A DNA stretch of 26,004 bases from a virus, in IMG/VR virus record IMGVR_UViG_3300020436_000082, positions 1 to 26,004 of that record. The stretch is one strand, 5' to 3'. A model generated the notes under the pieces. The model had not been told where the DNA came from and searched no databases. It saw nothing but the letters and a program-made list of their open reading frames with translations. The position numbers and the translations under genes were made by a program. How positions within the stretch are numbered: position 1 is the stretch's first letter; each line of letters starts with the position of its first letter. This document shows, piece after piece, positions 1-14,791 of the stretch.

Positions 1-370
1 CCTCTAATGCCCTGCGAACCTCTGTATCAAAATTATATACATCTAATTGATATTCTAATGCACGCTCTAAAACAGTTGCAACTGTCCTGGCAACAGGGTC
101 ATTATTTCGATATCTGCGATTAACTTTTGGTCTAGGTGTTTTGTAATATAATGCAGATTTTAATGTATCCGTATTAGAATATAAAATATTCATACGAATT
201 TCCCTGCTGACTCGATCAGGGGAATCATCCCTATACCGATCAATAATATCCATACAACGCTCGCGCCATTGCTCCTCAAACTTTAATGCCTGGTTGATGG
301 TTTTTGTCCAATACCCTGCACGCTCTTTTTGGTTCTTTGGCTCTGCATCATACATTTGTTCTTCAGCCAT
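1..370 (-). CDS. Portal protein, N-terminal part (runs off the left edge)
   Basis: Reading leftwards from ATG at 370 gives about 123 residues beginning MAEEQMYDAEPK, with no stop before the window edge. The stretch with NILYSNTDTLKSALYY followed by KTPRPKVNRRYR and an Arg/Glu-rich helix (VLERALEYQLDVYNFD) is typical of the N-terminus of portal proteins from P22-like and related podoviruses. The portal forms the dodecameric ring at the capsid vertex through which DNA enters and leaves. The start codon overlaps the large terminase stop by one base (TAATG), so the two are translationally coupled, and terminase-portal is the standard packaging order. The rest of the gene, and probably scaffold and capsid genes, lie outside. 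The assignment rests on remembered family features and gene order. Confidence 0.8.
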   Translation of the reverse strand, partial: MAEEQMYDAEPKNQKERAGYWTKTINQALKFEEQWRERCMDIIDRYRDDSPDRVSREIRMNILYSNTDTLKSALYYKTPRPKVNRRYRNNDPVARTVATVLERALEYQLDVYNFDTEVRRALE

Positions 371-1806
371 TATAATCTCCAACCTTGCGGTTTATTGCTA
401 TTAGCTCGATCCATGCCTTGCATCATTTCTTCGATTGTCGGCGGCCGCCAGATATCTTCTTCGATTTCTGGTTTTTTCCTGGTGTACGGCCTAGCCATGC
501 AAGCATAACGGATTTCGTCTGCACAATGATCCTCTGAATCGGTACAAACATCCTCAATTCGATGCTTGTCATGCACCAATACAGGAAGTGTACGAATTGT
601 GTCCGTACAGTTTTTAAATATGTAAAGCATCGGTTTACCATCATCGCCCATTAACCTCTGTCTTAGTTGATCCCATCCTGCAACGCGGCTATTATCCGCC
701 CTGCGAAACATTACGCCCATTTTGGATAATCGTTCTCCAATACTAGGCCCACCATCAAATTTCCATATACTCGGATCACCTACTGAAAAATCTATTCTTT
801 CATGCTGTTCTCTGGAGCGTATACCAGCTCCAACTTCCTCAGCAGATAATCGCAACCCACGATTTGGGCCTGCAGCACCATACCATTCTCGATAACGCAC
901 TAAAGCATTGTCTGGAATTGTATCGTGTCCTTGTGCAACAGCCCACCATCCTACACTAAAAGGTGCAGATGATCCCCAATCAAAAGAACGATATTTTGTC
1001 CAATATTCAGGTATTTCAAACGGCTGTATTACATGAAGATCGCGTTTCCATATATCGCCAAAAAACGATCCAACGACCAAATCCCAATCGCCAACACGCA
1101 ACGCCCTTGCTAATTCCTCTGGCAATCCACTAAAACTGCTTGCATAAGTTGGATCAATATATTTGTTATCTTCCATTCTTGATGGAATATACATTGTAAC
1201 CCATCCCTTATCTTTGGGATTGTCAGGATCACGCATTGTATGATCGTAAAAATAACTTTCTGATGGAGCAGGGTCAATATAAAGGGCTTTTAAATAATTA
1301 TGACTCTGCCCACCAGGATTTGCGGTCATTACCAATCGAGGGAGAAATGCAATTTGTTTTGGTTCATAACCGCCTAAGCGCATTCGTGATTTAATATATC
1401 CAAGCTGATAAGCAGTCATTTGTCCTGCTTCATCTATGCCTGCAAAATGAATTTCTGTGCCTTGTATTCGATCACAATCGGAATCACGCTCTAAATACTG
1501 AAATTGTATGGTTGATCCATTATGAAACGTAAAACGCTTTCGTGATTCATTATACTCGCCTAAACTTGGCGGCATTTCCTTGCGTAAGGGCTGTATATGG
1601 TTTGCATCCAACTCTGGCAAAGACCTGCGAAAAATAAACGCATTTAAACCAGGATTTTCTAAACAAAATGCTATACAATCCCATCGTAAGGCATGACTTT
1701 TGCCACCACCTGCCGCACCACCAAACAATATTTGTTTTGCTTTACATTGATGCAACAACACTTGTTTTGGCTGCGGATTATAGTCAAGTTTAATTGTTTT
1801 CGTCAT
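370..1806 (-). CDS. terL: Terminase large subunit (packaging ATPase/nuclease)
   Basis: A 478-residue protein with both halves of a phage packaging motor. The ATPase has a Walker A loop GGAAGGGKS at residues 29-37 and a Walker B with catalytic acid GIDEAG (D125, E126). The C-terminal RNase-H-like nuclease starts at FDWGSSAPFSVGWW (D276), the usual first metal-binding Asp. Length is normal for the family. It pumps DNA into the prohead through the portal and cuts concatemers. Its ATG at 1806 touches the stop of the upstream polyvalent-protein gene, and its stop overlaps the portal start. Unusually, two large effector-like genes and two tiny basic genes separate it from the small subunit. Confidence 0.95.
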   Translation of the reverse strand: MTKTIKLDYNPQPKQVLLHQCKAKQILFGGAAGGGKSHALRWDCIAFCLENPGLNAFIFRRSLPELDANHIQPLRKEMPPSLGEYNESRKRFTFHNGSTIQFQYLERDSDCDRIQGTEIHFAGIDEAGQMTAYQLGYIKSRMRLGGYEPKQIAFLPRLVMTANPGGQSHNYLKALYIDPAPSESYFYDHTMRDPDNPKDKGWVTMYIPSRMEDNKYIDPTYASSFSGLPEELARALRVGDWDLVVGSFFGDIWKRDLHVIQPFEIPEYWTKYRSFDWGSSAPFSVGWWAVAQGHDTIPDNALVRYREWYGAAGPNRGLRLSAEEVGAGIRSREQHERIDFSVGDPSIWKFDGGPSIGERLSKMGVMFRRADNSRVAGWDQLRQRLMGDDGKPMLYIFKNCTDTIRTLPVLVHDKHRIEDVCTDSEDHCADEIRYACMARPYTRKKPEIEEDIWRPPTIEEMMQGMDRANSNKPQGWRL

Positions 1807-3755
1807 TATGGTAGTAAGTTTTCATACCCTTGCGGCGGAGGTTCATCGATTTTTGGAAAATCATCAGGCGGAAATATAGAGCGTTCGTCTGGACTTCCCG
1901 ATCTTCTACCTACAAGTCTAGCTTCTGCTTCACCTAAAGTATCATAATAAATATTTCTACTAAAAATGGACTGAGGTTTAATTTGTGTAAGATTTGCTGC
2001 ATAAGGATAGCGAGGGTCTTTTTCATAAAATTCTAACGCCCTTTTGGCATCCCTGTATTTAAAAGCATCCTCTGACGTTTTATCACGCTTTCTTTCCGCT
2101 TTACCTATACGGCTTTTTATTTCTTTTGCTGTTAAAGTGTTTGCTAAATTTGCACCGCCTGCAGTTTCGTTTTCAATTTTCTTTGCAAGTTTTTCAAATG
2201 CCAGGCTAATATATTTTTCTCGCTCTGGTGTTTTGCGTTTTTTATAGGTTATTCCTGTTTCGTCAAAAATCTCACGCCGTATTTCATCGCTGTATTTATA
2301 CCAATAACCATTATTGAATAATAAACGCGGCTGATGGCTGTCTAATAACGCCTTTTCTCTAAAATACTTAATTCTATCTGCATGATACAAATTAGATAAT
2401 TCTGCTTGTAATCCTAAATTTTCATAAAAGTTATCGTTAGTTTCTTTTATAATTCTCTTTTTTTCATTAATTGCGTTTTGCAATCTATTACCAATATTAG
2501 GATCGATAGGATTTGCTCCTTTAGAAAAGCCCTCTATTTCTTGTACTGCGTGTTGTATTTCGTGAAATAAAGTATCTCTGATTACTTTTTTAAAATCTTT
2601 TGCTTTTATCTCTTTGGTTTTTAAATGTTGCAACCCACCTATTAAATTGGACAAGCTTATGCCTATTTCCTTATTTTTTTGACTAAAATAACCTCCCTCT
2701 GTAACAGGTTCTTTTTGATAAAAATTAACCTTATAATTTGCTAATTGTGGATAGGCTTCAAATAACTCAGGATGCTCTAATATCTCACCCAAAGTAGTAA
2801 TTTTACTTACTTTTCCGTTTTCTAGTTTTGAATCTGGAAACCTTATCTCAAAAGCATCGCTTGTAATTGTATCTGATAAGACAGGTTTGTTATCATCTAT
2901 GCCTAAGTTTATTTTAGCGGTGCTATCATCAATTTCAAAACGATACTGCTGATCTGGAAATTTAAACAAGCCTTTTCCATATTCTCGTTCTGTGTCTCTA
3001 AAAAAACTAAACGGCGTTGTTTTTTTCAATGCCTGGTCATAATCTTCAAAGATTTTTTGTGTGTTTAAATCACCTGAAAAAATAATTTTATCCAATTCAT
3101 TACTTAAACTTTTTTCCCTTTTTGTTAGGTCATCTGTTACCGCATCGCCTAATTGCATTCTTCCCATTGTTAGCATCTGCTGCACAGATTCTTTTTCTTT
3201 TTTTAATTGTTCGTATCGATTTAAGTTTTCAGTAATTTCCAGTCTTTTTTTCTTGTCTGGAAATGTCTTTGCAAGTTTGCCTGCAAAAACACCTATAGCA
3301 CCCTCTGGCACTACGCCTGGTAATTGCGATGTTAATGCACCTAAAACGCCAAACTCGGTTACAAAATCTGTGGCATCTGCAATAAATTGTGGATTATTTC
3401 GCATTTGATTTACATTACCATATTCGCCTTTTGCTATACGGCGCGGTATTGTAAAAGCCTTATAGGTTTCTTGCAAAAATTTTGGTACTGCAAATGTAAA
3501 CGCACCCTCTTTTGTTTCACCTATCGGCGCTAATTCGCCACGAAACGCCAGAGGTTCATTAGGTTTACCTGCTAAAGCTGCGCCAAAATCACTTAGTCCC
3601 TGTTTGAAAATTTGCCCCACATTTGTTTCACCAGATAATTCATCAACAGGAGGTTTTATTTTACCTGAAAAAAAACGACTGTCGCTAAAAGGGTCGTTTC
3701 GCTTTTCTTGCATTAGCCTTTGTGCCAACAAGCGTTGTTGTAACCCATTTACCAT
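1806..3755 (-). CDS. Large polyvalent protein with HExxH metallopeptidase-like domain (LPD23-like)
   Basis: A 649-residue protein. Residues 1-51 form a tag shared with the neighbouring gene at 3767-5449 (NGLQQRLLAQ, then PFSDSRFFSGKI). A Phe/Ala/Gly-rich part follows, then a coiled, Lys/Glu-rich stretch at about 170-240. The second half holds LFHEIQHAVQEIEGF with the zinc-binding HEIQH near residues 395-399, and a C-terminal GEAEARLVGRR near residue 606 that could give a third ligand. This pairing is what I remember of the large-polyvalent-protein-associated domain LPD23 of phage and conjugative-element proteins that are delivered with DNA. I infer a virion-carried protease or protease-like effector acting early in the infected cell. 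Position between terS and terL supports packaging with DNA. The substrate is unknown. Confidence 0.7.
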   Translation of the reverse strand: MVNGLQQRLLAQRLMQEKRNDPFSDSRFFSGKIKPPVDELSGETNVGQIFKQGLSDFGAALAGKPNEPLAFRGELAPIGETKEGAFTFAVPKFLQETYKAFTIPRRIAKGEYGNVNQMRNNPQFIADATDFVTEFGVLGALTSQLPGVVPEGAIGVFAGKLAKTFPDKKKRLEITENLNRYEQLKKEKESVQQMLTMGRMQLGDAVTDDLTKREKSLSNELDKIIFSGDLNTQKIFEDYDQALKKTTPFSFFRDTEREYGKGLFKFPDQQYRFEIDDSTAKINLGIDDNKPVLSDTITSDAFEIRFPDSKLENGKVSKITTLGEILEHPELFEAYPQLANYKVNFYQKEPVTEGGYFSQKNKEIGISLSNLIGGLQHLKTKEIKAKDFKKVIRDTLFHEIQHAVQEIEGFSKGANPIDPNIGNRLQNAINEKKRIIKETNDNFYENLGLQAELSNLYHADRIKYFREKALLDSHQPRLLFNNGYWYKYSDEIRREIFDETGITYKKRKTPEREKYISLAFEKLAKKIENETAGGANLANTLTAKEIKSRIGKAERKRDKTSEDAFKYRDAKRALEFYEKDPRYPYAANLTQIKPQSIFSRNIYYDTLGEAEARLVGRRSGSPDERSIFPPDDFPKIDEPPPQGYENLLP

Positions 3756-3766
3756 AATAAACTCGT

Positions 3767-5449
3767 TTAATTGTTTTCGTCATCTTTAAAAATGCTTGCG
3801 CTTTTTGCAAGACCTGTAACAGCCACAGGGCCAACAATGCCGTATTTGGCAAGTATGTTTATTAGGTTCTCGTCAAAGATGACGTAATTGCTTGACCTAT
3901 TTCCTATCTCTGTATTAGCCCAATCTTCAGCCTCTTTTTGAGTCTTGTATGGCTTACTTGTGGTAATTACTCGACCACTTCCTCCAAGTCCTGTCTGTCT
4001 GTTTGGGTCATCTAATACAATTTTTGCTTGAAACTGACCATCATCTAGTTTGTTAATACCTAACAACTCGCCACCGAATGTATTTCGTGATGCGTTATCT
4101 AAGTATTTTATGCCTTTGATGCCAAATTCGTTCATTATTTCAGATGCAATCTTTGGAGTGCTGCCTAATGGGTTTCCTATATAACCAGTAACAGTTTTAT
4201 CATCTAGCATTTTAGTATTTACTAATTTCAAAAAAGGATCTTCATTAATCATTTTTTCAAAATCAAGTTGGCTTATTTCTTTTTTTAGTCTTCTAACATT
4301 GTTATCTGCTATTTTATTTATACCTGCTTCAACTTGACTTTCCAATTCTTGTCTGAATAAACCACCACTAAGACTCAAATCTAATTTAAAAAATCTATTT
4401 TCAGCAAATGGCATAATTTCAATTATTTCTTGAACCTTATCTTGCATATTTTTAGATTGTTCATTAATCGGAATGTCATGGTTTATTAAATTATCAGTTA
4501 CAGTTTTTATATTAACTTTGTAGGTTTTACCCTTTAATTTCTTTAGTCCACCTTTTTCCTGTATATTTCTAAGTGTTATCAAATCCTGTTCTGCTAGCAT
4601 ACTAGCTTCAGTATTAGGATTGTTTTGAATAATTCTTTCGGCTCTATTTATAGGCTTTTCTATATTCCCATCATGGTCTAAAATTGATGTTCTTATGTTT
4701 GGATTTTTTATTCTTAGCGTACCATCTCCTTGAGGCTCATAAGGGTCAAACAACCTACCATCAGGAGTCTCAAATCTATCTTCTGAAATTTTGTTCTTAT
4801 AAAACTTCGCTATGTCTTCAGTATCAGTAAAATATAATCCATACCCAAAAACCTGTGCGCCTTCGCCTGTACCCATCTTATCCATGCGAAACTGGTCAAA
4901 GTCAGCACCACTTCCATGAAAAGCAATAATGCCAGGCTGTGTATCTGTTGGCGGTTCTACTTTGGCTATATCACCTGGTTTTACATCATCTACTGTCTTA
5001 GATGCCTTAGAACTCCCTTTTAATGCCTTACCTAACTGACTTGCGCCTTTCATTGCAGCGGCTGGAGCAACTAATACAGGCGCAAAAGGTGCTGCAGCTA
5101 ACATCACATCACCACCTGCACCAAGCGTTTGTAATCCTGCATCCAACAAATTACCCTGTCTTACATTCTCTGCAAAACTCGGTAATGTCTGTCCTGGATT
5201 CATAGGATCAGGTGCAAAACCCAAAACATCAGAAAATCCACTACCAGGTGTAAACATCGCTCCTGTTGCACCTACTGCATAAGGAATAGACGCACCTTTG
5301 AAAATTTGTTCTCTTGTAATATCCTCTGATAAATCCTCTGCAGGAGGCCTAATTTTGCCAGAAAAAAAACGGCTATCACTAAATGGATTATCCCTATTTT
5401 CTCGCATCAATCCTTGTGCTAACAAGCGCTGCTGTAATCCATTCGCCAT
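3767..5449 (-). CDS. Large polyvalent protein with ADP-ribosyltransferase-like domain (ART-PolyVal type)
   Basis: A 560-residue protein. Residues 1-51 repeat the tag of the next gene downstream (about 35 of 51 identical by eye). A Gly/Ala/Pro-rich hydrophobic part covers about 55-150. The catalytic-type domain follows: FHGSGADFDQF near residue 177, GYGLYFTDTEDIAKFYK, the later KGIKYLDNASRN, and a C-terminal NYVIFDENLINILAKYG. These are the signature blocks I know from ADP-ribosyltransferase domains of polyvalent proteins, where HGS binds NAD and the YVVFD-type end closes the domain. It probably modifies a host target after injection with phage DNA. Its ATG overlaps the stop of the poly-Lys gene (TAATG), and 11 bp separate it from the metallopeptidase gene. 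The target is unknown and activity is untested. Confidence 0.75.
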   Translation of the reverse strand: MANGLQQRLLAQGLMRENRDNPFSDSRFFSGKIRPPAEDLSEDITREQIFKGASIPYAVGATGAMFTPGSGFSDVLGFAPDPMNPGQTLPSFAENVRQGNLLDAGLQTLGAGGDVMLAAAPFAPVLVAPAAAMKGASQLGKALKGSSKASKTVDDVKPGDIAKVEPPTDTQPGIIAFHGSGADFDQFRMDKMGTGEGAQVFGYGLYFTDTEDIAKFYKNKISEDRFETPDGRLFDPYEPQGDGTLRIKNPNIRTSILDHDGNIEKPINRAERIIQNNPNTEASMLAEQDLITLRNIQEKGGLKKLKGKTYKVNIKTVTDNLINHDIPINEQSKNMQDKVQEIIEIMPFAENRFFKLDLSLSGGLFRQELESQVEAGINKIADNNVRRLKKEISQLDFEKMINEDPFLKLVNTKMLDDKTVTGYIGNPLGSTPKIASEIMNEFGIKGIKYLDNASRNTFGGELLGINKLDDGQFQAKIVLDDPNRQTGLGGSGRVITTSKPYKTQKEAEDWANTEIGNRSSNYVIFDENLINILAKYGIVGPVAVTGLAKSASIFKDDENN

Positions 5450-5574
5450 TATACACTCTTTTTCTTCTTCTTCTTCTTTTTCAACCCTCTAAAGTCCGCA
5501 GCAGTTATTTTCGTTCTTGGTGCTGCAACCTGTGCTAGTTTTTTTTGTTTTGGTGAATATTTACGAAATGGCAT
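5449..5574 (-). CDS. 41-residue basic protein ending in an eight-lysine run
   Basis: Translation from ATG at 5574 gives 41 residues: MPFRKYSPKQKKLAQVAAPR, then TKITAADFRGL, eight lysines, SV and stop. It is joined to its neighbours by TAATG at both ends, which argues strongly for a real gene despite its size. The block PRTKITAADF is one I associate with small proteins in marine phage genomes, but no function is known to me. The charge suggests binding to packaged DNA. The lysine run is encoded by a GAA/AAG microsatellite (TTC repeats on the plus strand near 5462-5482), a possible slippage site. Confidence 0.7.
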   Translation of the reverse strand: MPFRKYSPKQKKLAQVAAPRTKITAADFRGLKKKKKKKKSV

Positions 5575-5732
5575 TACTTCCCTACCTTTTTCATCGCTGC
5601 TTTATGTGCCTGTGTAAAGGTCTTACCCATACGCATCAGTTTACGCATTTCTGTCATGTGCTTTGCTGTATGGTGTACCTTATGTTTTTTTAAAGCATCC
5701 AACTGACGTTTTGTTAATGTTTTCATGCGCAT
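5574..5732 (-). CDS. Lys/His-rich small protein (50-52 residues)
   Basis: ATG at 5732 (or an in-frame ATG at 5726) opens a frame of 52 or 50 residues: MRMKTLTKRQLDALKKHKVH, then HTAKHMTEMRKLMRMGKTFT and QAHKAAMKKVGK. The stop overlaps the next start (TAATG). The pattern of paired HH, KHM and a C-terminal AHKAAMKKVGK resembles a family of tiny basic proteins that I remember from marine phages and some large DNA viruses, all without assigned function. I infer a DNA-binding virion or nucleoid-like role. It is the first gene after the repeat-rich gap following terS. Neither start has a strong ribosome binding site, so the exact start is uncertain. Confidence 0.65.
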   Translation of the reverse strand: MRMKTLTKRQLDALKKHKVHHTAKHMTEMRKLMRMGKTFTQAHKAAMKKVGK

Positions 5733-5743
5733 TGTTTTTCCTA

Positions 5744-5789
5744 TGCAACCTGTGCAACCAAAATTTTGTAGTGCAACCTGTGTGCAACC
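5744..5789. repeat. Four direct copies of TGCAACC in the terS downstream gap
   Basis: TGCAACC starts at 5744, 5753, 5772 and 5783, mostly in the longer form TGCAACCTGTG. More copies lie close by at 5524 and, inside terS, at 6122 and 6343, with reverse copies (GGTTGCA) at 6316 and 6362. A single heptamer should hardly occur once in this stretch by chance. Being clustered at and next to terS, these could be recognition sites for the small terminase (pac or cos). That is inference. Confidence 0.5.
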
Positions 5790-5869
5790 TTTTTTGTGTG
5801 TGTGCGTGTGTGTTTGATATACGTTTTCGTTGACTGCAAAACCTGCCAGGTGGGGTCATGCTATGGGGA

Positions 5870-5891
5870 GGTGTTCAGATTTTAGGACACC
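5870..5891. repeat. Inverted repeat GGTGTTC / GGACACC
   Basis: GGTGTTC (5870-5876) and GGACACC (5885-5891) pair over 6 of 7 positions around an 8-base centre, 35 bp past the terS stop. No T-run follows on the minus strand, so it is a poor intrinsic terminator. The GGACAC/GTGTCC core also occurs as repeats around the attP core (14435-14454, 14690-14743), so a shared binding protein is possible. Confidence 0.4.
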
Positions 5892-5925
5892 TTACTTTTT
5901 GAGTTTGTTGATACACAAGGGTTTG

Positions 5926-6573
5926 CTAGTCTTGGCTCATTGATACATTATCAATGGGCTTAATATTGATAACCTCGTCTGAATCGCCACGACTAATATT
6001 TATCTGAACTGCTAAACTATTGTTATTATTGTCTTTTTGACCAAATGTTTCGCGCTGTGTTTTCTCTAACCACCAACTATCAGCGCGCCAATCTCCCTTA
6101 TCTCCTGCCTTTTTTATGTTTTGCAACCTGGAAGCTACAGCATCGCTCTCTGCTGCGCTACACTCAGAACCAAACTCCTTGTCCCCTTCCATCCATCGAT
6201 TTAACGTACTCAATGAAATCCCAGAACTTCTTGCTGCATGAACTCTAGGAACACCTTGTCTTAGTAAACTAAGTAAACTGTGCCTTCTTTCAGGAGTATC
6301 CTTATCAAACTTTTGGGTTGCAGTCTTAACATATTGCATTTGTGCAACCGCTCTTGGACTAGGTTGCAGTTGCATTCCTGTTTTCTTTTCAGCAATCGAT
6401 CTCGCTTTAGTTACGCTTTTGGTAAAATGTTTCCATCCATATTTTCGAGCGCGTTTATCAATAGCTTGCCTGGATACATCAAAATCTTTCGCAATAGTAA
6501 AAGTAGATTCACCATTTTTGACACGATATTCAATGGTTTCCCAATCAACATTTGTGGGTTGGTAGTTTCGCAT
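5926..6573 (-). CDS. terS: Terminase small subunit-like HTH protein
   Basis: A 215-residue protein. The N-terminus (about 5-50) has a helix-turn-helix of the form TIAKDFDVSRQAIDKRARKYGW. A second HTH-like unit lies in the middle (LLRQGVPRVHAARSSGISLSTLNRWMEGD), followed by a helical region and a mixed C-terminus. Two small HTH units plus oligomerising helices fit small terminases, which pick the DNA end for packaging. It lies in the packaging gene block upstream of terL, though not adjacent to it. The start at 6573 has no Shine-Dalgarno; instead CCTCCT lies upstream, and an in-frame stop rules out an earlier start. Its last codons (KPIDN) contain an exact copy of the attP arm motif. A different DNA-binding role cannot be excluded. 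Confidence 0.7.
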   Translation of the reverse strand: MRNYQPTNVDWETIEYRVKNGESTFTIAKDFDVSRQAIDKRARKYGWKHFTKSVTKARSIAEKKTGMQLQPSPRAVAQMQYVKTATQKFDKDTPERRHSLLSLLRQGVPRVHAARSSGISLSTLNRWMEGDKEFGSECSAAESDAVASRLQNIKKAGDKGDWRADSWWLEKTQRETFGQKDNNNNSLAVQINISRGDSDEVINIKPIDNVSMSQD

Positions 6574-8891: not shown

Positions 8892-9009
8892 TTTTTTTTA
8901 AACTCGCACAGTATTTGACAACTATGCAGTTATATGCGAGAACGATAAAGAGAACATATTTAGACAGTATTGGTAAAATTACTTTACCTATTTCGACAAT
9001 GAGTAGTAT
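8892..9009. promoter_or_regulatory. Divergent control region between the Cro-like and winged-helix genes
   Basis: Two dyads are visible: CTCGCA (8903-8908) with TGCGAG (8935-8940), spanning a TTGACA hexamer near 8916-8921, and GGTAAA-5-TTTACC (8972-8988). On the plus strand TAGACA near 8962 lies 17 bases before TTACCT. On the minus strand TTGTCA near 8916-8921 lies before TTTAAA/TAAAAA near the start. These are weak promoter matches; the dyads look like operators. A tiny frame ATGAGTAGTATATGA just upstream overlaps the 9010 start. Confidence 0.5.
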
Positions 9010-9540
9010 ATGACAGAAAAACAATTAAAATTTGAATTAAGAATAAAAGACAAAAATAAAGTTTCATTACAAGAATTATCAATTTCCGATGAATTATTTG
9101 TGGGTTTTGTAAAAAATAAAATCAATCACTTTGTATTAAATCAAAACAATAAAAAACTTTCAAAAATACAAAATTATTTTAACAGTTCATCTAAAAGATC
9201 AATTATTGCTTGGTTGGCATATTGGCATAAGAAAACCAACCAGGAGTTAAATATACAGCGTTCTATGGAAATATTAAAAATAACAAGGCAAGGTGTTTCC
9301 AATATTGTGCATGAATGTGCTGCTGCTGGATATTTTATTGTGAAAACAAAAGTAAATGGAAAAGAAACAACTTTTACAACAAGCGATGAATTAGACATTT
9401 TAATTGAAAATAATGTTTATGATTCTATAAATATATTTCAAAAAAATGGTTACAATAAAATGGTGAATAGTTACATAGAAACACAAGATTATATGCAAAG
9501 ACACTATACATATAATAAAAAATTTTGTACGGATATATAG
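9010..9540 (+). CDS. Winged-helix DNA-binding regulator (176 residues)
   Basis: The centre reads RSIIAWLAYWHKKTNQELNI, then MEILKITRQGVSNIVHECAA and a beta wing AGYFIVKTKVNGKETTFTTS. This is the helix-turn-helix-wing layout of MarR-like regulators. The N-terminus (1-60) is Lys/Asn-rich and helical; the C-terminus is polar. It is transcribed away from the Cro-like gene and lies just before the CI-like repressor, so it is probably part of the lysis-lysogeny switch. Its codon use is strongly AT-biased, more so than the structural genes. A half-site GGTAAAG overlaps its stop codon, resembling the GGTAAA dyad upstream of its start, so it may control both. No close named relative comes to mind. Confidence 0.6.
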   Translation: MTEKQLKFELRIKDKNKVSLQELSISDELFVGFVKNKINHFVLNQNNKKLSKIQNYFNSSSKRSIIAWLAYWHKKTNQELNIQRSMEILKITRQGVSNIVHECAAAGYFIVKTKVNGKETTFTTSDELDILIENNVYDSINIFQKNGYNKMVNSYIETQDYMQRHYTYNKKFCTDI

Positions 9541-9555
9541 GTAAAGTTAAAGTTT

Positions 9556-9610
9556 TTGATTTTTAGTAATTATTCCTTATGATTAAAGTTTGACGATTTT
9601 AATGATAAGG
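9556..9610 (+). promoter_or_regulatory. Promoter and overlapping operator of the CI-like repressor
   Basis: TTGATT (9556-9561) and TATGAT (9578-9583) are 16 bases apart and point to the repressor gene. Overlapping the -10 is a long dyad, 9575-9610, with 13-base arms beginning CCTTAT and ending ATAAGG that pair at about 12 of 13 positions around 10 bases. A regulator bound here would cover the -10 and transcription start, so autoregulation is likely. AAGGA at the right arm also serves as ribosome binding site for ATG 9621. Confidence 0.55.
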
Positions 9611-9620
9611 ATAAAAAATT

Positions 9621-10274
9621 ATGCTAGTAGATATGGAAAAAAAGCAATTACAAAATGCACTTTTAAAGCTAGGAAACGATTTAGGTATGAGTACATCGGA
9701 ACTAGCACAAACCTGCGGTATTTCAAGCAGTACATTAACAGGATTTGTGAATGGTACAGGTGATAGAGCGAATCACACATTATCAATAAGAACCATTAAT
9801 AAAATTTCAAATAAATATGAGTCATTTCGTGATTTTTTAAATTTACCTGCAATGCCTTCAGATATGGTTGATATTCCTATCATTGGATATATAAATCATG
9901 TAACACAACCTTTAGCGCAGCTTTTTCCAATTGAACCTAATATGACCACAAGCATAAGAGTGTTAAAGGCTTGGGATGGATGCTTTGCAACTACAGTAAA
10001 GCATTTTGAAAAAGAAAGTGAAAGTTTTGCTTCAAATTGGATTCATGTTTGGCGGCCTGACCCTGTTGAAAATATAGAAGTAGCATTAAATTCTATATGT
10101 TTATATTTTGCTACAGAAGGGCCTAAATATTGTGGATGGTTGCGTTTGAGAGATGGTGAGTTTTATTTGCAAAATCGTAATCAGCCTCAAGGAACAATAA
10201 AACTTCCTAAAAATCCTAGAATATTTTTATCTAATTTTATAATTACAAATCGCTTAACAAATCGAAAAAGTTAA
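9621..10274 (+). CDS. CI-like repressor, Xre HTH, no visible S24 active site
   Basis: A 217-residue protein. Residues about 8-70 form an Xre-type HTH: LGMSTSELAQTCGISSSTLT then GFVNGTGDRANHTLSIRTIN. The linker continues to DIPIIGYINHVTQPL, which resembles the start of the peptidase S24/LexA domain (VPxxGYV). The catalytic blocks are not recognisable: there is no DSM-type Ser and no clear Lys. The C-terminus (about 90-210) keeps a beta-rich pattern. I infer a lysogeny repressor that does not cut itself, so induction would need another route. The start at ATG 9621 has AAGGA 9 bases upstream. The operator dyad immediately before it supports autoregulation. Confidence 0.7.
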   Translation: MLVDMEKKQLQNALLKLGNDLGMSTSELAQTCGISSSTLTGFVNGTGDRANHTLSIRTINKISNKYESFRDFLNLPAMPSDMVDIPIIGYINHVTQPLAQLFPIEPNMTTSIRVLKAWDGCFATTVKHFEKESESFASNWIHVWRPDPVENIEVALNSICLYFATEGPKYCGWLRLRDGEFYLQNRNQPQGTIKLPKNPRIFLSNFIITNRLTNRKS

Positions 10275-11908: not shown

Positions 11909-12106
11909 ATGACACCAAAAACTTTGGCAGTTTTAAAATTTATAAGGAATTATGTAAAAAAACATGAAATTCCGCCTACTTATAAAGAAATTAAGGAAGA
12001 AACAGAGGTTTCGCAGGGGGGTCTAAACTACATCCTACGAAACCTTGAAACTGATGGAAAAATAATACGAAAAATTGGTAGAGATAGAGGGTCGTGGCCA
12101 ACTTAA
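11909..12106 (+). CDS. Stand-alone LexA-type winged-helix domain (65 residues)
   Basis: MTPKTLAVLKFIRNYVKKHE followed by IPPTYKEIKEETEVSQGGLN and LRNLETDGKIIRKIGRDRGS aligns by eye with the DNA-binding domain of LexA (IPPTxxEI ... LxxLexxGxIxR ... RG). The whole S24 protease domain is missing, and the protein stops right after the wing. There is no remnant downstream, where the integrase gene converges and overlaps by four bases. It might occupy host SOS boxes or phage operators without being cleavable, or act as an antirepressor. AAGG upstream of ATG 11909 serves as ribosome binding site. Confidence 0.75.
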   Translation: MTPKTLAVLKFIRNYVKKHEIPPTYKEIKEETEVSQGGLNYILRNLETDGKIIRKIGRDRGSWPT

Positions 12107-13230
12107 TATAGACTCTCCTCTATAATGTCGTTCATATTTTCAGGGTCTTTATCTATCAGATGACCATACAATTGTGTGGTGATCTGATAGCTTGAATGTC
12201 CTAGCATTTTTTGTACCCATAAAGGTGAACGATTATTTTCTCTTTGTACCTGGATAATACGACTTGCATAATAATGTCTTAAGGGATGCACACCTTTTTT
12301 CCACTCATGTTGCATATTAAGATTTTTTAATGCTTTTCGTATTCCATATTTCATTAAAGAATTATATCCAATAGGTTTTCCATCATTAAATTTTGCATCA
12401 AAAATCCAATCATTAGATTCTTTATTTGCAATCAATACTTCTAAAACCTCTTTTAGTTTTTTACCAAAGTATACTTCTCTCATTCCTGATACAGTTTTAG
12501 TACCTCTAAGAGTTCGATTATTAGACATTGCTCTTTGTACTTTAATTTTTTTTCTTGGAAAATCTATGTCAGAAACTTTAAGAGATACCGCTTCCCCTGC
12601 CCTAAGACCATTAGCACACAATAAAGTAAAACAATGATATTTAGGATGAAAATTGCTTTCTAATTCTTGTAAAAGTTTTTCAACTTGCTCTTGTGTAGGA
12701 CACCAGGCTTCTTGATGAAACTGTTGTAATTTAGTTTCTTTACCCAATCGATCAGGTTCAAATTGAAATATACTACGATATTCTCTACTTTTATTATATA
12801 TAAATTTTATACATCCTAAAAACTGTCCGTAAATATGATTTCTTGTTCGATTGGATAAATTACCCTTTACATCATCAATTGTTTTGCGAACAACTTGTAA
12901 TAATTGCTCGTTTAAATCGACCACTAAAATTTGCTCTAAAGGTCGATTATGTATTGTCAAGGATTGTAAATGACGAACAAAACCTTGCACACTTGTTTGC
13001 CATTCTTTTGTATGGGTTGCTTTTGAATGCAAATCATACATTGCGAAAACATCTTTCATAGTTGTTTGTTCTTCAGCATTAAAAGATTTCACAAAACCAG
13101 ATTCTAAAAGTTTGTTTTTAAGTTGAATCTGTGTTCTTGCTTTAACCTTTTTTTTTGATCCACTATCATTTATGTAAGCTGTCCAAAATCCTCTATCATC
13201 TTTGGTATTTGAATATGTAACTTTACTCAT
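12103..13230 (-). CDS. int: Tyrosine integrase
   Basis: A 375-residue site-specific recombinase. An arm-binding beta-sheet-like N-terminus (about 1-60) is followed by a SAM-like core-binding domain (about 60-165) and the catalytic domain. The catalytic set is visible: R210 (NGLRAGEAV), a Lys in the beta hairpin near KTVSGMREVYFGKK, H315-x-x-R318 (HPLRHYYAS), H345 (LGHSSYQ) and nucleophile Y355 (QLYGHL). It should join attP, whose core is a tRNA-Lys 3' end at 14582-14632, to the host tRNA gene. It is the last gene of a five-gene minus-strand operon; its ATG overlaps the preceding small gene. It meets the LexA-like gene tail to tail. Confidence 0.95.
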   Translation of the reverse strand: MSKVTYSNTKDDRGFWTAYINDSGSKKKVKARTQIQLKNKLLESGFVKSFNAEEQTTMKDVFAMYDLHSKATHTKEWQTSVQGFVRHLQSLTIHNRPLEQILVVDLNEQLLQVVRKTIDDVKGNLSNRTRNHIYGQFLGCIKFIYNKSREYRSIFQFEPDRLGKETKLQQFHQEAWCPTQEQVEKLLQELESNFHPKYHCFTLLCANGLRAGEAVSLKVSDIDFPRKKIKVQRAMSNNRTLRGTKTVSGMREVYFGKKLKEVLEVLIANKESNDWIFDAKFNDGKPIGYNSLMKYGIRKALKNLNMQHEWKKGVHPLRHYYASRIIQVQRENNRSPLWVQKMLGHSSYQITTQLYGHLIDKDPENMNDIIEESLY

Positions 13231-13390
13231 TTGATTTATTGTCCTTATTTTGCATTAAATCACGATTTATTTCATCAACCTCAGCTCGTATATATTCATC
13301 TACTCTTTTACTAAATTCTTTTAATACTATTCTATACAGTTCTTTACGATTACTTTCGCTGCAATTTGATGTCAACTTGATCTTTTTCAT
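13223..13390 (-). CDS. 55-residue helical protein upstream of int; possible excision factor
   Basis: ATG 13390 has an excellent AGGAG 6 bases upstream. The product reads MKKIKLTSNCSESNRKELYR, then IVLKEFSKRVDEYIRAEVDE and INRDLMQNKDNKSNE. It is a charged helical protein with no clear HTH. Its stop overlaps the integrase start by 8 bp, so it is co-translated. Small proteins in this spot are often recombination directionality factors or antitoxin-like regulators. I cannot assign it; excision factor is a positional guess. Confidence 0.65.
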   Translation of the reverse strand: MKKIKLTSNCSESNRKELYRIVLKEFSKRVDEYIRAEVDEINRDLMQNKDNKSNE

Positions 13391-13413
13391 TTTATTCTCC
13401 TATTTAAGTGTTA

Positions 13414-13566
13414 TTATCCTATAAATTTTTTAATTGCTGATTCCATTACTTTTGCTTGTTCTTCATCAAGACCTTGCTCAGATAAATCAAGATGAAAATA
13501 ATCTGAAGACATTAAAGCAATGCGTATCATTTCCATCTCTTTTTCTGTAAGTTTTATCGTTATCAT
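13414..13566 (-). CDS. 50-residue acidic protein in the integration operon
   Basis: ATG 13566 is preceded by GGGAG. The product is MITIKLTEKEMEMIRIALMS, then SDYFHLDLSEQGLDEEQAKV and MESAIKKFIG. It is helical and acidic in the centre, with a short beta start. It lies 3 bp after the stop of the OB-like gene and 23 bp before the next start. No family is recognised. Confidence 0.65.
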   Translation of the reverse strand: MITIKLTEKEMEMIRIALMSSDYFHLDLSEQGLDEEQAKVMESAIKKFIG

Positions 13567-13569
13567 TCT

Positions 13570-14130
13570 TTATTCTCCCTTTATTAAATTATAAACTTCA
13601 ATTCTTTCTAATCTTGTTTGTTTTGTTGATACTCCGAATTTACTTTTAAAAATTGAGTGATCTTTTATTTTTCCTCTTACTTCAATTCTATCACCCTCTT
13701 TTGCACCCTCATTTTCATGGTGTAAATATTTTGAACCTTTATAAACAAATACATTTCCCTCAAAATCAATAAGATTAAAAATATAACTTTCTCCCCAATA
13801 CCCATCAAAAGAAAATATTTTTTGAACAAATAAAGTTGTTGAAATATTTTCTCCAACTTCCCCTTTATGTTTGCTAATTTTTGCAAGTTGAATTTCTTTA
13901 GTTCTATAATTTTTGCGAACAGTTGAAATAGATTTTGCATCATTTCTAGGATAAGAAATTGTACCATTTCTTAATTTGATTCTTGTTTGACCACAATTTT
14001 TTCTAAAATAAAAATGCAATTCCCAAAAACCCCTTAATTTGTTTTTTGCTTGCAAATCGCAATTTTGCCCTAATTTTTCATAAAATCTTTTTTCTTTTAA
14101 AAATAATTTTTGATCTGTAACTTTACTCAT
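13570..14130 (-). CDS. Unknown 186-residue protein with possible C-terminal OB-fold
   Basis: ATG 14130 is preferred over a TTG 6 bases upstream because GAGG lies at the right distance. The N-terminal half is Lys/Arg/Asn-rich and contains LRGFWELHFYFRKNCGQTRI and a SISTVRKNYRTKEI segment. The C-terminal half (about 95-185) has alternating strands: NISTTLFVQKIFSFDGYWGE, YIFNLIDFEGNVFVYKG and GDRIEVRGKIKDHSIF, ending RLERIEV. This beta pattern with a GDRIEVRGKI turn is typical of OB-like nucleic-acid-binding folds. It may act in DNA transactions with integration. Its first 15 bases match those of the integrase gene exactly. Confidence 0.6.
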   Translation of the reverse strand: MSKVTDQKLFLKEKRFYEKLGQNCDLQAKNKLRGFWELHFYFRKNCGQTRIKLRNGTISYPRNDAKSISTVRKNYRTKEIQLAKISKHKGEVGENISTTLFVQKIFSFDGYWGESYIFNLIDFEGNVFVYKGSKYLHHENEGAKEGDRIEVRGKIKDHSIFKSKFGVSTKQTRLERIEVYNLIKGE

Positions 14131-14299
14131 TTTCAATCCTCTTTACTTCTGATTTTTTAAAAGTAAACAATTTATCTTCAAGACAATTAAATAAATCAGC
14201 ATCTTCATCTTCAATCACGACTTCTGTTGGGTGAACATGAACCACAAGACCATAAATTTCTTCGTCTATAACTTTTACTCTATCTCCAACTTTTATCAT
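14123..14299 (-). CDS. 58-residue acidic SH3/KOW-like protein, first gene of the integration operon
   Basis: ATG 14299 is preceded by GGGAG and lies about 30 bp after the predicted transcription start. MIKVGDRVKVIDEEIYGLVV then HVHPTEVVIEDEDADLFNCL and a KSEVKRI end give a small beta barrel-like pattern (KVGDRVKV...GLVV). It overlaps the next gene by 8 bp. Proteins with this opening often bind nucleic acid or modulate enzymes; no function can be given. Confidence 0.6.
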   Translation of the reverse strand: MIKVGDRVKVIDEEIYGLVVHVHPTEVVIEDEDADLFNCLEDKLFTFKKSEVKRIENE

Positions 14300-14334: not shown

Positions 14335-14363
14335 TATATATTCGTTAACGCATACATTGTCAA
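14335..14363 (-). promoter_or_regulatory. Near-consensus promoter of the integration operon
   Basis: On the minus strand TTGACA (14363-14358) and TATATA (14340-14335) are exactly 17 bases apart, a near-perfect sigma70 promoter. The spacer contains the perfect palindrome CGTTAACG (14343-14350), a likely operator. The start of transcription would be near 14328, about 30 bases before ATG 14299. The attP arm repeats begin 13 bp upstream of the -35, so integrase binding may also control this promoter. Confidence 0.75.
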
Positions 14364-14375
14364 CCCAATTAATAA

Positions 14376-14425
14376 TATCAATGAGCCTATTATCAATGGG
14401 CTTAGAAATATTATCAATGGGCTTG
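14376..14425 (+). repeat. attP arm repeats, left group (three copies of TATCAATGGGCTTA-like motif)
   Basis: Copies lie at 14376-14389 (TATCAATGAGCCTA), 14391-14404 (TATCAATGGGCTTA) and 14412-14425 (TATCAATGGGCTTG), all in one orientation. A fourth lies on the other side of the att core at 14778-14791. Direct repeats on both sides of the core, roughly 150 bp away, are what arm-type integrase binding sites look like. Confidence 0.6.
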
Positions 14426-14434
14426 AAAAAATTA

Positions 14435-14454
14435 GGTGTCCCAGAGGTGTCCCA
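14435..14454 (+). repeat. GGTGTCCCA direct repeat, 11-bp period
   Basis: GGTGTCCCA occurs at 14435-14443 and 14446-14454, one helical turn apart. Related TAGTGTCCCA lies at 14736 and its inverse GGACACTA at 14690, on the other side of the core. One-turn spacing suggests cooperative binding, for example by an excision factor. Confidence 0.5.
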
Positions 14455-14529
14455 AAAAGGGTCATTTTTGGCATATCTGACTAGACCATGACTATACCAT
14501 GTTCGTAAAATATTCGACATCACTAGGTA

Positions 14530-14559
14530 TAAAAAAAGAAGTAAGATCAATGTCTTACT
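14530..14559 (-). terminator. Intrinsic terminator just beyond the tRNA 3' end
   Basis: On the minus strand a 7-bp stem, AGTAAGA / TCTTACT, with a 6-base loop is followed by TTCTTTTTTTAT. It lies 23 bp past the CCA of the tRNA-Lys fragment, on the same strand, and before the integration operon promoter. It could end tRNA transcription in a lysogen and late transcription in the phage. Confidence 0.65.
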
Positions 14560-14581
14560 CCATTTTTGAAGCTATGCTTTG

Positions 14582-14632
14582 TGGTGAGCCGTAGAGGACT
14601 CGAACCTCTGACCCATTGATTAAAAGCCAATT
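14582..14632 (-). other. attP: attP core: 3' part of a tRNA-Lys(UUU) gene
   Basis: On the minus strand the sequence runs from the 5' side of an anticodon stem (CAATTGG), through loop CTTTTAA with anticodon TTT and closing TCAAT, to T-arm AGAGG-TTCGAGT-CCTCT, the 3' acceptor strand ACGGCTCA and an encoded CCA. The 5' half (acceptor 5' strand and D-arm) is absent: upstream bases are AT-rich phage sequence. Integrases often use tRNA 3' ends, and insertion here would restore an intact host tRNA. The exact upstream limit of identity with the host cannot be seen. Confidence 0.85.
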
Positions 14633-14689
14633 GTCTTGAAAAATATGTCATTGTTTTTATTACCTTTTTTAGAACCATTTTTTTTTCTA

Positions 14690-14743
14690 GGACACTAAAT
14701 TAACTAATAAATTACTAAATTTGTAAATGTCTGTCTAGTGTCC
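14690..14743. repeat. Inverted repeat GGACACTA / TAGTGTCC in the right attP arm
   Basis: GGACACTA (14690-14697) and TAGTGTCC (14736-14743) are perfect 8-bp inverted copies separated by 38 bases. They share the GTGTCC core with the tandem pair on the left side of the att core. This looks more like paired protein sites than an RNA hairpin, given the spacing. Confidence 0.45.
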
Positions 14744-14777
14744 CACCATTTTTTTGCTTGGTGTCTTTTTTTATATT

Positions 14778-14791
14778 GTCAATGGGCTTAA
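14778..14791 (+). repeat. attP arm repeat, right copy (TGTCAATGGGCTTA)
   Basis: It differs from the left-side motif TATCAATGGGCTTA at one position and has the same orientation. It lies about 145 bp to the right of the tRNA core, as the nearest left copy lies about 155 bp to its left. Confidence 0.55.

Follow-up and report, generated by a model that had tools for sequence, protein, structure and literature searches.

The stretch of DNA analysed here, called the window throughout, comprises 26,004 bases and corresponds to an entire IMG/VR virus record. On its minus strand it carries the 3' half of a tRNA-Lys(TTT) gene, from the anticodon stem to the CCA end (14582–14631), identified by direct inspection of the sequence. 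Inverted halves enclose a 7-bp loop, and the proposed overlap, TTAAAAG (14620–14626), is the anticodon loop itself. ARAGORN, run on the window, found no whole tRNA at this core, which is expected because an attP carries a half-gene. The core is nested between an inner and an outer family of short motifs. This layout, put forward in the original prediction, proved real when the sequence was checked directly, and the identification of the region as an attP was likewise upheld. A pattern search of host genomes for a matching tRNA-Lys attB returned none, and a search of species genomes for the integrase, aimed at the host, gave no match.

The integrase gene (12103–13230, minus strand; PF00589, E 2e-21) encodes a tyrosine integrase of 375 amino acids, in which the catalytic residues of tyrosine recombinases (R210, H315, R318, H345 and Y355) are invariant across an alignment of 36 sequences. 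The AlphaFold2 model computed from this alignment (mean pLDDT 86) places strands at residues 3–6, 16–22 and 25–31 and a helix at 34–44. A three-stranded sheet plus a helix is the arrangement of arm-binding domains, and about residues 1–45 are thus predicted to form such a domain at the N-terminus. The best structural matches found by Foldseek include the Tn1549 and lambda integrases; lambda Int and the Tn1549/Tn916 integrases, which are heterobivalent, likewise combine an N-terminal arm-binding domain with core-binding and catalytic domains. Among isolated phages, matches to the integrase lie only below about 32% identity. Tail-to-tail with the integrase gene, overlapping its end so that the two stop codons share 4 bp, lies a gene for a LexA-like winged-helix protein of 65 amino acids (11909–12106, plus strand; PF01726, E 5e-7), a candidate excisionase that is found at the same place in L114–L118 and is expressed from the operon opposite to that of the integrase. 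On the promoter side of the integrase operon we also noted a palindrome-like element, TATTCGTTAACGCATA (14339–14354). Similar TATGCG...CGCATA words occur at the integrase-operon promoter of relatives, and a like word lies near 8934, in a divergent regulatory region; the palindrome is likely a repressor operator that ties the integrase gene to the immunity region.

The inner motif, GGTGTCCCA, contains GTGTCC at 14436, 14447 and 14738 on the plus strand and at 14690 on the minus strand, that is, four copies in 561 bp where about 0.08 would be expected by chance. The corresponding sites are 14435–14443 (GGTGTCCCA, plus), 14446–14454 (plus, 11 bp from the first), 14688–14696 (AGTGTCCTA, minus) and 14737–14745 (AGTGTCCCA, plus). 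A degenerate fifth copy, GGTGTCT (14760–14766, plus), had been overlooked. The outer word TCAATGGGCTT occurs exactly at 14393, 14414 and 14779, three copies against about 0.0003 expected in the same 561 bp, within plus-strand sites at 14391–14403, 14412–14424 and 14777–14789 (TGTCAATGGGCTT). As a family the outer copies stand as originally described, with two corrections: the leftmost (14376–14388, plus, TATCAATGAGCCT) is degenerate, reading TCAATGAGCCT at 14378, and the right-hand copy starts with TG at 14777, not at 14778.

The closest relative, the contig G001 of 7,897 bp, shares this attP and the integrase with the window, and both motifs are present in it. Its core is the same tRNA-Lys half-gene with a compensated change in the T-stem, and the attP between the motifs is nearly unchanged. 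By contrast, all four originally listed inner sites read GTGTTC in place of GTGTCC, and the fifth shows the same change, to GGTGTTC. Altogether, 17 of the 36 substitutions between the two attP regions fall in the 55 inner-site columns out of 557 (P=1.5e-9, a value that is indicative, as the site boundaries were drawn after the motif had been seen), whereas none of the 36 falls in the 56 outer-site columns. G001 also carries one additional outer copy to the left and one to the right of the core, and with the latter comes an additional inner copy. The two integrases differ at 13 amino acids and by one codon insertion within residues 15–36, and at only four of the other comparable residues. Residues 15–36 belong to the predicted arm-binding domain, since they span strands 16–22 and 25–31 and reach into helix 34–44. 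A single recombination tract fails to explain this pattern because unchanged DNA separates the changed arm sites; an altered N-terminal domain matched by altered arm sites, as read from the two sequences, explains it. The small genes between attP and the integrase gene differ in G001 as well, and therefore this pair alone would also be compatible with a reader encoded there. Set against L005 2852–3548, window positions 13223–14299 show these small genes of the close relative to be entirely different, between flanks that are over 95% identical.

More distant relatives extend the comparison. Six integrases from viral contigs share 31–37% identity with that of the window, and all six have, close to the integrase gene, an attP that contains the 3' half of a tRNA and shows the same nested two-motif layout spelled in other words. 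Among these and related loci the N-terminal domain has repeatedly been exchanged: the integrase of L113 has most of its C-terminal part in common with those of L114 and L116, whereas its N-terminal domain is a different one, and its arm word is AGTGTCTTGT where theirs is TAGTCTGTAA; the integrases of L170 and L199 are 32% identical over the N-terminal 50 residues and 82% over the rest, and their arm words differ. At the level of sequence, then, each of these N-domain replacements comes with new arm words. L115 is an exception in that its arm words are mixed between the two sides. Its attP (about 9,000–9,700) is a mosaic, with words of the L116 kind in the left arm and a different kind in the right arm and at terS, and may have arisen by recent recombination. 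With arm sites to the left and right of the core and concerted changes of word and N-terminal domain in three independent comparisons, the idea that the inner motif is an integrase arm site is supported, and we propose with good confidence that GGTGTCCCA is an arm-type site that the N-terminal domain of the integrase would read in the attP arms.

The outer motif appears to be of a different nature. The original prediction had noted that part of it, ATCAATGGG, recurs in the core, which is correct (14612–14620, inverted), and had suspected from this that arm and core recognition are related. The hunch was a good one. The outer word fits the tRNA core on either side of the 7-bp loop. When the window was scanned with a matrix built from the arm copies only, for inverted matches 7 bp apart, the tRNA core emerged as the second-best pair, exactly around the anticodon loop. 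Its score is reached at only two positions of the window, 4% of simulated genomes hold an equal pair somewhere, and part of the symmetry comes free, tRNA stems being inverted repeats around 7-nt loops. In L117 and L118 the tRNA-Lys core reads TCAGTGG rather than TCAATGG, and AATCAGT(GG) is the outer word; in L113–L116 the outer word CCTGTCAC matches the T-stem flanking the 7-nt T-loop; permuting the motif letters gave P values of 0.002–0.005 for the match of outer word and core in each group. The outer word thus changes with the tRNA core in three groups, and therefore behaves as a core-type site. Most likely, judging from these comparisons, the outer motif TRTCAATGGGCTT is a core-type integrase half-site repeated in the arms, which the core-binding and catalytic domains would read as such, and strand exchange at attP would most likely take place in the 7-bp anticodon loop of the tRNA-Lys.

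Other readers of the outer motif were considered. A site for IHF (consensus WATCARNNNNTTR) was rejected given a spacer of 5 bp instead of 4 bp and the conserved TGGGC centre, and against the full IHF consensus even the best copy has two mismatches. A classical repressor operator is disfavoured, the arm copies being asymmetric single half-sites. An excisionase, perhaps the 65-aa winged-helix protein, is an unlikely but coherent alternative. That protein is conserved beside the integrase gene in the groups examined, the arm copies are direct repeats of a kind common at excisionase sites, and the outer words stay constant within a group while the N-terminal domains change, so that they could follow the 65-aa protein, or equally the C-terminal part of the integrase. 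An excisionase site would, however, hardly be expected to fit the halves of different tRNA cores in three groups, nor to stand inverted in pairs at the terS gene, spaced by the very 7 bp that separate the halves of a core. The earlier assignment of the outer motif to an excision factor or a bending protein is accordingly unsupported: the motif follows the core, shows core geometry at terS and does not suit IHF.

Of all outer pairs with a 7-bp spacing in the window, the best one lies at this terS locus. The gene for the small terminase subunit (terS, 5926–6573, minus strand; PHROG 4102, E 8e-13) contains in its last codons the core-like pair TGGCTCATTGA-TACATTA-TCAATGGGCTT (5933–5961), and none of 400 simulated genomes held a pair as good. 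Two inner motifs lie beside it, GGTGTTC (5870–5876, plus) and a member of the AAGGTGTCCT family (5882–5891, minus), so that the stretch 5866–5965, 8.7 kb from attP, combines an outer-type inverted pair with two arm-type words. The joint recurrence of both motifs there had been missed by the original prediction. The large terminase subunit (terL, 370–1806, minus strand; PHROG 979, E 1e-36) is encoded further on, and between the two genes lie two related long genes with the shared start MxNGLQQRLLAQ (1806–5449). One gene of this type occupies the same interval in G005 and none in G006, and therefore a spot for accessory genes adjoins the second site. The non-coding stretch after terS (5517–5790) holds TGCAACCTGTG repeats, with GGTTGCA-like words at the same place in relatives.

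The architecture of the second site recurs at the terS 3' end of the contigs G004, G005 and G006, each with its own core half-sites and arm words, and a search with terS added 80 further loci, a few of which overlap these three contigs. A tandem pair of words with a period of 10–12 (~11 bp) is present at 45 of 60 distinct terS ends, compared with 3.8% of control stretches, and about 25 different words are represented among these pairs. Where both sites are available, the terS-end words recur at the phage's own attP. In a comparison of 12 phages, in which the count for the window includes outer words, the own attP shared the most words in 10 of 12 cases, one of them a tie (permutation P<5e-6); the exceptions are L115, whose terS word equals that of its right arm, and L184, where agreement extends to 9 of 11 positions by eye. 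The core half-sites of the two places also agree (P=2.5e-5 over the 12 phages, inflated since several share a tRNA). Phages of the tRNA-Glu/Asp group have their core-like pair downstream of terS; in L136, for instance, this pair reads ACCGCC-TTGAAGA-GGCGGC, and the phage's own tRNA-Glu core is CGCC-CTTTCAC-GGCGGC. The terS genes of two groups had no match among isolated phages, and contig ends near terS, inspected by eye for virion ends, were uninformative. Loci reached through a neighbouring 112-aa gene lacked an integrase of the window's type and were set aside, and a DNA scan for outer pairs also hit an unrelated contig of 74 kb (L027/L028), in which there is a tandem array.

These words occupy the place at which a packaging signal would be expected, with conserved C-rich elements next to them, and could in principle be packaging sites bound by TerS that resemble attP arms by chance or shared drift. 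Yet TerS proteins that are 98–100% identical adjoin different words, each matching its own attP, which rules out TerS as their reader and makes such an origin of the likeness scarcely credible. A C-rich element such as GCCCCCAGGCAAAGCCCCACAG follows the tandem arm pair at terS 3' ends, for example in L149, L151 and L184, and is itself a candidate packaging signal. If another element had once been inserted at the terS 3' end, the site could be the attL or attR that it left behind as a relic. The position of the core at a gene's 3' end, the restriction of arm sites to the outer side and the accessory genes that separate terS from terL in the window and G005 would agree with this. We regard it as quite improbable: G006 carries the site without an inserted gene, the core-like pair of the tRNA-Glu/Asp group lies outside terS, and a relic would stop tracking the words of the resident integrase, while tracking is seen in many lineages. 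Our best explanation, to which as a whole we assign a probability of roughly 0.8, is that the attP belongs to a temperate phage of marine origin, so far uncultivated, whose tyrosine integrase is of the lambda type, and that the second site, made of a core-like pair and an arm pair, would be an additional recognition site of the same integrase. The relatives are metagenomic contigs throughout, and the support comes from sequence comparison.

The integrase would accordingly bind both attP and the second site. The latter would recombine only with its own copy, and not with attP or attB, because its overlap TACATTA differs from TTAAAAG. In phage P1, the Cre-lox system has its recombinase site near the packaging start, where it circularises terminally redundant DNA and resolves multimers. 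A comparable position, beside the packaging genes, is found in the window, in G004, G005 and G006 and at many further loci, and by analogy the most likely job of the second site is also circularisation of terminally redundant phage DNA or resolution of multimers. Cre, by contrast, lacks an arm-binding domain and does not act at an attP for the chromosome, whereas in the window a single integrase would serve both sites. The main rival is that the site acts as an operator, at which bound integrase represses terL or blocks packaging without recombination. Its place between terS and terL would suit such a role, and for KplE1 the arm and core sites of IntS are documented to act as operators at its own promoter (PMC2951348). 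An operator, however, could do without two inverted core halves set 7 bp apart, and yet such a pair is present in the window, in G004, G005 and G006 and in the tRNA-Glu phages; we consider this role possible, though the less probable outcome. It is a tentative proposal, which we put at somewhat short of even odds, that a large set of temperate, uncultivated phages employ a single integrase for two reactions: integration at the attP in a tRNA gene and, at the second site, either circularisation or the resolution of multimers.

Several known systems share parts of this organization. In lambda-type attP regions arm sites flank a core with a 7-bp overlap, as is proposed for the window; the window differs from lambda in repeating core-type half-sites in the arms and in having a second att-like site, and to our knowledge neither repeated arm half-sites nor such a site at the end of terS is known for lambda. 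The use of a tRNA anticodon loop or T-loop by an integrase has been described, e.g. for L5 and Ms6 (PMC1762012), and there, too, the core consists of a 7-bp loop with flanking stem halves; in the window's family the geometry suggests use of either the anticodon loop (Lys, Glu, Asp) or the T-loop (L113–L116). With the KplE1 IntS/TorI system (PMC2951348) the window shares a tRNA att that overlaps the promoter side of the integrase gene and an excisionase, in the window a candidate, encoded outside the integrase operon; the part of that account consulted describes no second site beside the terminase genes, such as the window has. We found no published account of a second att-like site or of packaging-linked circularisation, within a literature coverage that was incomplete.

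In summary, our comparison suggests that the integrase of these phages has a so far undescribed second job beside the packaging genes. Phage integrases are usually thought to have one attP each. With two sites to serve, a fast-evolving N-terminal domain would force the arm words at attP and at the second site to change together. The natural replacements of this domain, with their matching arm words, provide ready protein–DNA specificity pairs for the arm-binding domain. A second att-like site by the terminase genes, kept across different tRNA targets and keeping pace with the specificity of the integrase, would point to an overlooked link between integration and packaging or circularisation.
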